Positions 47,839 through 51,464 of a stretch of 64,000 bases of DNA are shown here, piece by piece. The notes under the pieces were generated by a model. That model had not been told where the DNA came from, did not search any database, and was given only the letters and a program-made list of their open reading frames with translations. The stretch spans positions 186,001 through 250,000 of the forward strand of contig ONJS01000007.1 in NCBI GenBank assembly GCA_900318205.1, in the 5' to 3' direction. Source of the stretch: an uncultured Prevotellaceae bacterium. GTDB taxonomy: Bacteria > Bacteroidota > Bacteroidia > Bacteroidales > Muribaculaceae. Position 1 is the first letter of the stretch. Each line of letters begins with the position of its first letter. The position numbers and the translations under genes were made by a program.

Positions 47839-48909
47839 CTACTGGGTTTTGACCCTCTCGGCGAAGGGGGCGTTGCTCCAGACGATGAGGGCGTCATTGA
47901 TGGTATCGGCGCTGATGGTCATCACGCCGAGGTCGCGCCGGTTCTGCATTACTTTTTTCACTTGGCTTTCTCCCATCACCATGCATGCGGTCGCCCAGGC
48001 GTCGGCAGTCATGCAGTCGTTGGCAATGACGGTGACGCTGAGCAGAGTCCCTGCCTGGCTGTCGCCGGTGTGCGGGTCGATGATGTGTGACAGTTTGTTG
48101 CCGCCCTCGATGCGCCACTTGCGGTAGTTGCCGCTGGTAGCGACTGCGCCGCTGTCGATGGCGAGCGTCATGGCGCTCTCGTGGCTGTTTTCGTACACGG
48201 GGACGGTTCTTTTGTACGAAAAATCCGATTTTTCGTACAAAAGAACCGTCCCTGTGTACGAAATTGGCATATCTACTGAGACGTGCCATGACGTGCCGCG
48301 GCTGTTGTGGCCGCTTGCCATCACCTCGCCGCCGATTTCGACGAGCCAGTTGACGGCACCGTTGCGGGCGAGCATACGGCCGATTTCGTCACACGCCATC
48401 CCCTTGGCAATGGAAGAGAAGTCGAGCATCACGCGCGGGTCACTCTTGACGATGGTGTCGCCGTGGAGGACGATTTTGTCCATCCCGATGAACTGCAGGA
48501 TGCTGTCGAGCTGAGCACGGGAGGGCAGGGTGCCGTTCTTGTAGCCGAAGCCCCATGCGTTGACCAGCGGCATCACCGTGGGGTCGAAGGCGCCGTCGCT
48601 CTCACGGTTGACGATGCGCGAGGCGTCGATGAGGCGTTTGAGGTAGGCATCGACAAGAGATGACGTGTTGCCGTTGATGGCGCTGATGAGAGAAGCCTTG
48701 TTGTAGGGCGATACGCTCATATCCAGCTTGTTGAAGATGAGCTGGATGCTGTCGCCCAGGTCGCGGTTGGCCTCGTAGGTGATGTGGTAGTCGGTGGTCC
48801 AGACGACGCCCTCGTTAGTGAAATAACGCTTACGGTCCCGCGAGCAGAACATCATCACGATGGCTATCGCGAGGGCAAACAGAATAGCGATATAACTCTT
48901 ACTTCTCAT
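47839..48909 (-). CDS. apbE: FAD:protein FMN transferase carrying an in-frame palindromic insertion
   Basis: ApbE attaches FMN through a phosphoester bond to threonine of exported flavoproteins such as NqrC and RnfG. The 356 residues include a membrane anchor or signal at 1-22, the motif DGAFDPTVMPLVNAWGFG near 103, LDFSSIAKGMACDEIGRML near 162 and WLVEIGGEVMASG near 187. ATSGNYRKW and SHIIDPHTGD follow. Between WHVSVDMPIS and SHESAMTLAI lie about 25 residues (near 217-241, starting YTGTVLLYEK) that are not part of the family and come exactly from a 75-bp palindrome at 48189-48263. Without it the length would be a normal 331. Activity may be kept if the loop is surface-exposed. Confidence 0.9.
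   Translation of the reverse strand: MRSKSYIAILFALAIAIVMMFCSRDRKRYFTNEGVVWTTDYHITYEANRDLGDSIQLIFNKLDMSVSPYNKASLISAINGNTSSLVDAYLKRLIDASRIVNRESDGAFDPTVMPLVNAWGFGYKNGTLPSRAQLDSILQFIGMDKIVLHGDTIVKSDPRVMLDFSSIAKGMACDEIGRMLARNGAVNWLVEIGGEVMASGHNSRGTSWHVSVDMPISYTGTVLLYEKSDFSYKRTVPVYENSHESAMTLAIDSGAVATSGNYRKWRIEGGNKLSHIIDPHTGDSQAGTLLSVTVIANDCMTADAWATACMVMGESQVKKVMQNRRDLGVMTISADTINDALIVWSNAPFAERVKTQ
48189..48263. repeat. 75-bp near-perfect palindrome inserted in frame in apbE
   Basis: The arms 48189-48225 and 48227-48263 are reverse complements over 37 bases with a single mismatch (48199 against 48253), which is a G-U pair in RNA. The arm starts TTTCGTACAC and includes GGGACGGTTCTTTTGTACG. Its length is 25 codons, all open in the apbE frame, so the gene survives the insertion. 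Confidence 0.92.
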
Positions 48910-50342: not shown

Positions 50343-50431
50343 CACAGGATTTTTGAAATCCGGGCCGGTTTAAGGTTTTTTTTGATGAAGCGGCGATGGG
50401 ATGGTGGCAATGAGGGTAGGGAAATAACAAC

Positions 50432-50459
50432 AAAAATCCCGCACCGGAATGGTGCGGGA
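50432..50459 (-). terminator. Intrinsic terminator of tRNA-Val
   Basis: On the minus strand TCCCGCACC-ATTCC-GGTGCGGGA is a perfect 9-bp stem followed by TTTTTG. Confidence 0.9.
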
Positions 50460-50466
50460 CCTCTGT

Positions 50467-50544
50467 TGGTGGGCAGTGAGGGATTCGAACCCCCGACCCT
50501 CTGCTTGTAAGGCAGATGCTCTGAACCAACTGCGCTAACTGCCC
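50467..50544 (-). tRNA. tRNA-Val (anticodon UAC)
   Basis: On the minus strand the gene starts GGGCAGTTAGCGCAGTTGG and ends with acceptor strand ACTGCCC, discriminator A and encoded CCA. The acceptor stem GGGCAGT/ACTGCCC pairs perfectly. The anticodon arm TCTGC-CTTACAA-GCAGA gives anticodon TAC for valine. The T arm reads GGGGGTTCGAATCCCTC. A terminator follows 8 bases after the CCA. Confidence 0.95.
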
Positions 50545-50687
50545 GTTGCTGTCAAAAGCGATAAAAAGTGCTTTTTTTTCAAAAAATGGGGTTTTTCTCG
50601 GGAAAAAGGGGTAATTTTGAGACGATATAAGGATAATTTTGGCGGTCTCGCCACAGCGGGGCCCCACAAAAGTTTTAAAACGAAAAA

Positions 50688-51236
50688 ATGAAGACGAGTT
50701 TTATTTTTCTGGCCGACGGCTTTGAGGAAGTGGAGGCCATGACGAGTGTGGATGTAATGCGTCGCGCGGGCATGCCCGTCGTGACCGTGTCGATTAACGA
50801 GGGCGTTGCCGTGACCGGTGCCCATGGTGTGACGGTGGTGGCCGACAGCGTGTTCGGTGACAACGATTACAGCGACGCCGAGTGGCTGGTATTGCCCGGT
50901 GGGATGCCCGGAGCCACCAATCTTGCCGCCCACGAGGGGCTGTCAGCGTTGCTGGATGCCCAAGACGAGCGAGGAGGCAAGTTCAGTGCCATCTGTGCTT
51001 CGCCCGCTATCGTGCTTGCACCGAAGGGCCTGCTGCAGGACCGTGACGCTGTGTGCTATCCCGGCATGGAAGCCGATGTAGAAGGCGTGCGCTGGGGTGA
51101 TGCCCAAGTTGCCGTATCGGGCAACGTCGTGACGGGTAACGGACCGGCAGCCGCTGCTCCATTTGCACTGGCAATGGTGGCCGAGAGCCTGGGCCAGGAT
51201 GCCGCCGACCAGGTAGCCAGTGGCATGCTGCTCTAG
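50688..51236 (+). CDS. DJ-1/PfpI family protein
   Basis: A 182-residue cytoplasmic protein of the DJ-1/ThiJ group. FLADGFEEVEA (7-17) holds the conserved glutamate E14/E15, LVLPGGMPGATNL (67-79) forms the oxyanion side, and AICASPAIVLA (101-111) carries the nucleophile-elbow cysteine C103. The motif AVSGNVVTGNGPAAAAPFAL near the end is typical of YajL/DJ-1-like proteins. Proposed activities are glyoxalase III-type deglycation or oxidative stress protection; which applies here is unknown. Confidence 0.9.
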   Translation: MKTSFIFLADGFEEVEAMTSVDVMRRAGMPVVTVSINEGVAVTGAHGVTVVADSVFGDNDYSDAEWLVLPGGMPGATNLAAHEGLSALLDAQDERGGKFSAICASPAIVLAPKGLLQDRDAVCYPGMEADVEGVRWGDAQVAVSGNVVTGNGPAAAAPFALAMVAESLGQDAADQVASGMLL

Positions 51237-51328
51237 ACCGTTTTTGTGTGTATGCACTATTTTGGTTAATTATGTTAGTGAATCGGTGTTTTTTGTTGAA
51301 AAAAGTTGCTGAGTTAAAATATAAGATG

Positions 51329-51336
51329 TATATTTG
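51329..51336 (+). promoter_or_regulatory. -7 promoter box for the dockerin protein at 51465
   Basis: TATATTTG; initiation near 51343 gives a leader of about 120 AT-rich bases and excludes the longer frame that begins at 51345. Confidence 0.6.
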
Positions 51337-51464
51337 CCACATCTTTGAGAAATAAGGTGTCAACCATGATACTTTTTTCCACAAGAAAAACCGCAGAAAA
51401 AAAGTTATACACATTTTTTATTAACTCATATTTTATTATTAACATTAAATCATTACTTAGATTT

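Follow-up and report, generated by a model that had tools for sequence, protein, structure and literature searches.

The locus considered here is an apbE gene encoded on the minus strand of a 64,000-nt stretch of bacterial DNA (the window, a term that stands for the whole stretch analysed), in whose interior lies a long REPIN-like palindrome, a doublet whose two REP units are inverted relative to each other (Table 1). The palindrome consists of two arms of 37 bases and one central base; 36 of the 37 arm positions match, as a preliminary description of this DNA had stated, and the single mismatch is at arm position 11. As single-stranded DNA it is predicted to fold with -40.8 kcal/mol against -10.0 +/- 2.2 kcal/mol for shuffled sequences (z -14; 0 of 200 as good), and one arm folded alone gives -7.0 kcal/mol. 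The odd position, to which the same description attributed a G-U pair in RNA, is a G-T only on the plus strand, the antisense strand of apbE; the apbE mRNA, which has the minus-strand sequence, carries an A-C mismatch there, unpaired in the predicted fold. The mRNA hairpin, computed on a region of 175 nt, reaches -92.4 kcal/mol (z -11.8). No stop trinucleotide occurs in the 75 bases on either strand, so that all six frames are open, a property found in 373 of 200,000 palindromes generated with shuffled arms (0.19%; single-base shuffles) and in 371 of the 63,925 75-mers of the window. Since a stop trinucleotide is present in the spacer of 5 of the 12 elements tested, six-frame openness is a property of the arms and not of every copy.

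Table 1. Features of the apbE locus, with positions numbered from the first base of the window
Feature	Position	Strand	Basis
apbE (FMN transferase family), host gene; element in codons 216-241	47839..48909	-	Pfam ApbE 1.8e-72
Whole REP doublet (REPIN-like palindrome), 75 bp	48189..48263	.	arm match, folding, copies in own genome
First REP unit; stem 48189-48197 / 48213-48221, loop 48198-48212	48189..48221	+	covariation register
Constant core GGGACGGTTCTT, first unit	48200..48211	+	
Doublet centre, between the two stems	48222..48230	.	
Second REP unit, inverted; stem 48255-48263 / 48231-48239	48231..48263	-	arm match and covariation register
Constant core, second unit	48241..48252	-	

The host gene is full-length and encodes, with the insert and without a stop within it, a protein of 356 aa. 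Orthologues of apbE were recovered from 56 of the 61 genomes searched, and among the 30 that were aligned the insert occurs only in the gene under study and in that of the sister genome G054, where the element occupies the same site and frame with 78 of 79 bases identical; because the sister species shares the site, an assembly artefact is unlikely. Absence from the other 28 aligned orthologues rules out that the insert represents conserved ApbE residues and bears out the earlier proposal of an in-frame mobile palindrome inside the gene. The linker between VDMP and HESA measures 27 residues in the two species with the element and 7-10 in the remaining aligned orthologues (lengths were parsed by script, one misparsed row being taken directly from the alignment), which corresponds to a net gain of 17-20 codons. 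A clean addition of exactly 25 stop-free codons, as first described, is therefore ruled out by these linker lengths, and what holds of it is the length of the element and the absence of stops; the linker either lost about 5-8 codons or was short to begin with. In the predicted ApbE model (mean pLDDT 88.7) the insert forms, at low confidence (block means 59-61), a two-strand extension between two core strands, and the rest has the standard ApbE fold, with 4xgv as best structure match (E 1.7e-24).

The arms belong to a repeat family whose members are scattered over the genome of origin (G000; 3.62 Mb, 53 contigs), in accordance with the expectation of further copies. A pattern search for the arm GGGACGGTTCTTTTGTACGAAA returned 12 exact matches and one with one mismatch; these 13 arms with the TTTCGTACA-type stem make up seven elements, including a single unit at C31:291.0 kb, and one more single unit, at C30:145.8 kb and with a variant stem, brings the total to eight. 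The additional full doublets lie on C36, C16, C43 and, in two cases, on C30, the contig of the window. An Rfam scan of four loci gave no known structured RNA family at the gathering score, and the exact insertion ends and target duplication could not be fixed because the empty sites are too diverged. The genome also contains a diverged relative (GGGACGGTTCCTAAGTACGAAA and similar), part of which is arranged in tandem: in L020 (G000:C31:79300-80500), positions 354-943, about five copies follow each other with a period of 116 bases, each with a diverged inverted pair GGGGACGGTTCGTCTGTATGAAAA.., and related units are seen on C13, C25, C31, C33 and C44. Another stem class (GGTAAAAAAGGGACGGTTCTTTTGATGTA) is represented in the same genome, where only one RAYT of this family matched, by a single unit in L209 (G000:C29:21600-24700, about 1511-1539).

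The design of the units emerges from 232 distinct 40-base arms, which were chosen because the core is present. These arms share one pairing register, in which the six inner stem positions are paired in 76-90% of cases; shifted registers are mostly paired below 50%, and isolated positions reach as much as 91% if their partner falls within or next to the constant core. In 34 arms with different stems, 70.9% of the pair cells are standard against 45.9% after shuffling, and the covariation score is 0.617 versus 0.217 for shuffled and at most 0.274 for slid alignments; changes on both sides occur in all nine pairs, a count that says little, since shuffles reach a mean of 8.4. The 12-base core GGGACGGTTCTT is constant across the genus, and the flanking stem is variable and covarying: it is TTTCGTACA / TGTACGAAA in the apbE element, and the types found in the genus include, besides TTTCGTACA, TGGGACA, GTGACA, GAAACA, CCATCA, TTATAACA, TTTAGTAAA and CTAGATAAA. 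One frequent stem class (GGTAAAATA..GATGTAATTTT) is unpaired in the common register. The tag GT[AG]G was found in the 16 bases over the 5' foot of only 12 of the 232 arms (9.3-9.5% of random 16-mers) and its complement C[TC]AC, sought across the 3' foot, in 6 (random 10.1%); the tag CGTC occurs at the 5' foot of 3 arms and at the 3' foot of 5 (random 5.4%), and GACG at the 3' foot of 7 (random 6.1%).

About 19 kb from the apbE copy, outside the window (which ends at C30:250000), a Y1_Tnp gene of the RAYT type (C30:253311-254117, 269 aa) is flanked on each side by a full doublet (C30:253.16 and 254.13 kb). Its product matches Pfam Y1_Tnp (2.4e-10), and the model is matched by 18 of 18 aligned members, among which H68, H70 and Y127 are invariant; the NCBIfam model REP_Tyr_transpos scores 51.5 bits, below its cut-off of 80. 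The AlphaFold model of this RAYT has as best match 4er8, a complex of TnpAREP with a REP hairpin (E 6e-6, at an rmsd of 9.9 and a mean pLDDT of only 68.9); phmmer found no match among PDB sequences, and the RAYT profile retrieved from them only 4er8, at E 0.55. HTH domains of Pfam are matched by a minority of the RAYTs (HTH_23 in 3 of 18, best 1.6e-6; HTH_7 in 4 of 18, best 4.7e-6), with none listed for the own RAYT. The RAYT unit is absent in three relatives, where the flanks match 27 (G081), 37 (G099) and 75 (G053) bases apart, too close for a transposase unit; the same flanks are 467 (G015) and 365 (G071) bases apart in two others, and the spacer sequences read do not contain the core. A Y1 HUH transposase related to TnpAREP, with short palindromes that flank it and are dispersed in the genome, agrees in these two features with a REPtron in the broad sense, and in the apbE palindrome two inverted REP units make up one hairpin, as in the REPINs defined in PMC3116915 (as given in parts of that source).

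Within the genus, the RAYT query matched in 36 of 101 genomes. The core lies within 1.5 kb of 18 of the 20 RAYT loci fetched (pattern search), and a 19th (L106) was recognised by the plain 12-mer; a tree of 18 of the 20 RAYTs contains five groups of like stems, four of them starred, to be read with 8 of 15 inner branches weak, one long-branch warning and one grouped RAYT without an assigned stem. The 15-mer GGGACGGTTCTTTTG occurs 661 times in 66 of the 101 genomes, versus one match for the reversed control; among 395 genomes of the phylum it was found in five only, the own one included, the other four having it once each, and the reversed control occurs once each in four other genomes. Core copies have a median of 6 in the 36 genomes with a RAYT match and of 1 in the 65 without (Mann-Whitney p 1.3e-6), with exceptions in both directions, namely four genomes without a found RAYT that hold 10-30 cores and six with a RAYT that hold none. 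Two further transposase genes were observed in the genome set: L018 contains one of IS200 type, and L019 (G000:C46:4500-7200, 976-1941) contains a second RAYT-like gene (321 aa) with no core GGGACGGTTCTT in the 2.7 kb read.

The placement of the elements relative to genes was surveyed in 150 clusters that are not a random sample, the loci having been chosen for holding the core and duplicates and clusters less than 150 bases from a locus end having been removed. A rough gene caller based on codon scores placed 120 of them in intergenic DNA, 19 across a gene end and 11 inside genes; the first figure is an upper bound, since N-terminal cases are put outside genes, and the lipoprotein clusters L034, L036, L046 and L049 as well as those in L014 and L017 were called intergenic despite open frames through them. 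Two of the 11 genic clusters are a core without a stem, hence a chance occurrence (L114:2413), and a 76-codon ORF (L133). A preference for coding regions is not supported by these counts. In-frame units are nevertheless found in several coding sequences: queA (Pfam Queuosine_synth) carries a single unit in G020 and double units in G095 and G094, the last located by homology, and none in 30 of 33 orthologues; a 2-hydroxyacid dehydrogenase, presumably PdxB-like, carries them at about the same place in G018 and G020 (double) and in G029 (single); a DUF6056 protein of G021 has them too, and so, with less certainty, does an own-genome ORF with a DUF7833 match that the gene caller missed. With the exception of G094, these coding copies were found via open frames and are unusable as a test of frame keeping; in orthologues found by homology, that is the sister apbE, one further queA and 16 of 16 lipoprotein signal peptides, the frame is kept. 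At L015 (G000:C43:51400-54000, 222-1265), and at the same site of G054 (L110), the frame of the upstream gene ends inside the element, the REP sequence forming the C terminus. In L014 (G000:C16:68300-70900, 90-1343) the N-terminal region of a BspA-type leucine-rich-repeat protein includes an in-frame doublet, ahead of the hydrophobic segment; this protein could instead start downstream of the doublet.

The lipoprotein series was obtained by searching for the mature part only of a DUF5074 lipoprotein, which gave 98 matches in 97 of the 101 genomes; the upstream region was read for 90 of the 98. A clear signal peptide with lipobox was recognised by eye in 63 regions, and the 27 unparsed ones do not contain the core. 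One to three units are inserted between the first Met and the lipobox cysteine in 16 of the 63 readable orthologues, always in frame and without a stop; on account of shared ancestry these are not 16 independent events. The units include at least two stem types in DNA (TTTCGTACA and TGGGACA) and both orientations. Those in plus orientation read GTVLL in 13 of 14 cases and GDGSF in the own genome, two signal peptides with a minus unit first read KRTVP, and similar-looking peptides (KIGTVLVM, KIRTALLM) are seen in several relatives that lack an intact core. In some of these lipoproteins translation could start downstream of the unit. The gene provides a natural series of empty, single, double, triple and possibly decayed states, which makes the passage from selfish palindrome to coding sequence a directly testable question.

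The explanation that accounts best for the palindrome in apbE is that this REP doublet is mobile but non-autonomous and most likely owes its spread to a RAYT-type Y1 (HUH) transposase working on single-stranded hairpins; its probability is put at about 0.87. Several observations weigh against it: the RAYT match of the sister species stands beside a different stem class, core number and RAYT presence disagree in some genomes, one common stem class is unpaired in the shared register, and the GTAG tag of well-studied REPs is lacking. Each arm would fold as its own hairpin, with a lineage-variable stem around a loop that holds the constant core, and two inverted units would make up the long palindrome, doublets being the usual product. 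The RAYT would recognise the folded unit on single-stranded DNA, through the loop core together with the stem, and then copy or move it; that the own RAYT cuts and joins these units is suggested by its position and by the biochemistry of TnpAREP published in PMC8266576, as far as parts of that source describe it. A copy would have landed in the variable ApbE linker before the split from the sister species, where its lack of stops, its length of a multiple of three and the variability of the linker probably made it tolerable, and would then have been translated within the protein. Genic copies would survive only where the added residues are harmless, as in loops, linkers and cleaved signal peptides, and where the frame is kept. 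Such a RAYT-REP system in a genus labelled Prevotellaceae stands out for the clarity of its design, in which the core is fixed, the stem covaries and related RAYTs have like stems next to them, and is biochemically testable. A more far-reaching idea, held tentatively and with more doubt than belief, is that the RAYT-borne hairpin is a recurrent source of protein sequence in the genus: REP units may have entered the lipoprotein signal peptide more than once, given the different stems, orientations and unit numbers, with the GTVLL of the core adopted into the hydrophobic export signal; the look-alikes without a core would be decayed, domesticated copies, and the loop would serve the transposase as a common code, the stem as a lock specific to the lineage.

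In-frame REP doublets are already in print for other bacteria, and the kind as such is known. Parts of PMC3733652 describe intragenic REPs, over half of these insertions being dimers or groups that encode 20-30 residues, some of them N-terminal, and according to parts of PMC6006769 REP insertions in tnpAREP genes keep the frame. The elements described here share with these dimers and with the Rickettsia palindromic elements (RPEs; parts of PMC3733652 and PMC10969869) the in-frame position in unrelated genes, the dimers of 20-30 residues and, in some cases, the vicinity of the N terminus, and differ in sequence family and host. RPE-4 and RPE-6 are classed with the CGTC REPs in parts of PMC3733652, where these have no adjacent transposase, in contrast to the present elements, which flank transposase genes. 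With the REPINs and BIMEs of Pseudomonas and E. coli (parts of PMC3116915 and PMC8266576) they have in common the inverted doublet that gives a long hairpin, the occurrence as singles and clusters and the tie of element classes to particular RAYTs; they differ in having no GTAG or GTGG at the stem foot, a constant loop core and a variable stem. The TIRYT/TIRtron group (Y1 subclass 2.1; parts of PMC3733652 and PMC6006769) is similar in the features found in the RAYTs here (260-271 aa, HUH motif, Y-I-H-x-NP, WSS) and in its flanking inverted repeats, some of the published ones being self-complementary, and the motif GGGGWSAS given in parts of PMC3733652 for TIR-flanked RAYT relatives is close to GGGGACGG. 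However, the core gives NGGGACGG, with G and not A at motif position 7, and does not fit GGGGWSAS, the first G of the TIR-like motif being present in 111 of the 232 arms; moreover, each unit here forms a hairpin whose core is constant and whose stem covaries, and parts of PMC6006769 report no REP-like sequences beside subclass 2.1 genes. The same source, in parts of its text description, presents the subclass 2.6 genes, mostly of Bacteroidetes, as flanked by atypical structures with copies elsewhere in the genome; they agree with the present system in phylum and in the YIH[QN]NP of many members here, and differ in length (179 aa versus 260-271). PMC text searches for GGGACGGTTCTT and AAGAACCGTCCC gave no REP paper by title, those for RAYT or REPIN in Prevotella or Bacteroidales gave, among the matches listed, titles that were all unrelated, and those for REP with signal peptide gave, among the matches listed, none relevant by title; neither the core/stem design nor the signal-peptide series turned up in the portions of open-access running text that were covered.

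Other explanations can be weighed against mobilisation by a RAYT. The preliminary description had likened the palindrome to the elements of Rickettsia, and the likeness holds as an analogy of in-frame palindromes, whereas the present ones are RAYT-linked REPs without GTAG or CGTC tags. A family of this kind, selfish, adapted to coding regions and independent of a RAYT, would suit a palindrome open in all six frames within a housekeeping-type gene; the predominance of clusters called intergenic (an upper bound), the copies that flank RAYT genes and the length, 75 bp where the first RPEs measure about 150 bp (parts of PMC10969869), make it very improbable. Still less credible is that the ribosome hops over the hairpin as over a mobile bypassing element, the insert then being absent from the protein: the great stability of the mRNA hairpin would favour it, but bypassing should not need the frame, and the lipoprotein signal peptides, chosen regardless of frame, all keep it.

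A role in DNA or RNA, as mRNA end, terminator or protein-binding site, with arms conserved by purifying selection and the apbE copy as a by-product, can hold together with the REP doublet and its RAYT, and is on the whole unlikely, though it deserves more weight than the two preceding alternatives. It draws on the comparison with G054, which shares 4 of the 8 own elements site for site: the elements are identical at 269 of 278 bases and their 300-base flanks at 2067 of 2400 (p 8e-9), and the pair of loop bases in front of GGGAC agrees between the species at 3 of the 4 shared sites, which argues against genome-wide homogenisation. Conversely, positions in mid-gene and in signal peptides are unsuited to a terminator, arm-to-arm conversion may likewise account for the conservation, and one of the four sites, on C31, does not reach significance by itself. 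The four differences between the species within the C16 element all fall in the spacer or at the edge, and the C36 site is empty in G054. That assembly, 91% complete, has one RAYT match, with another stem class beside it, and the genes that flank the own RAYT site have no match in it; constraint, arm-to-arm conversion and a late RAYT loss may each have played a part. Elsewhere in the window, about 0.9 kb (50416-51345, compared with L192 1-987) is 95-98% identical between the two species, where the neighbouring 6.8 kb is 89% identical, and may be a mark of recombination.
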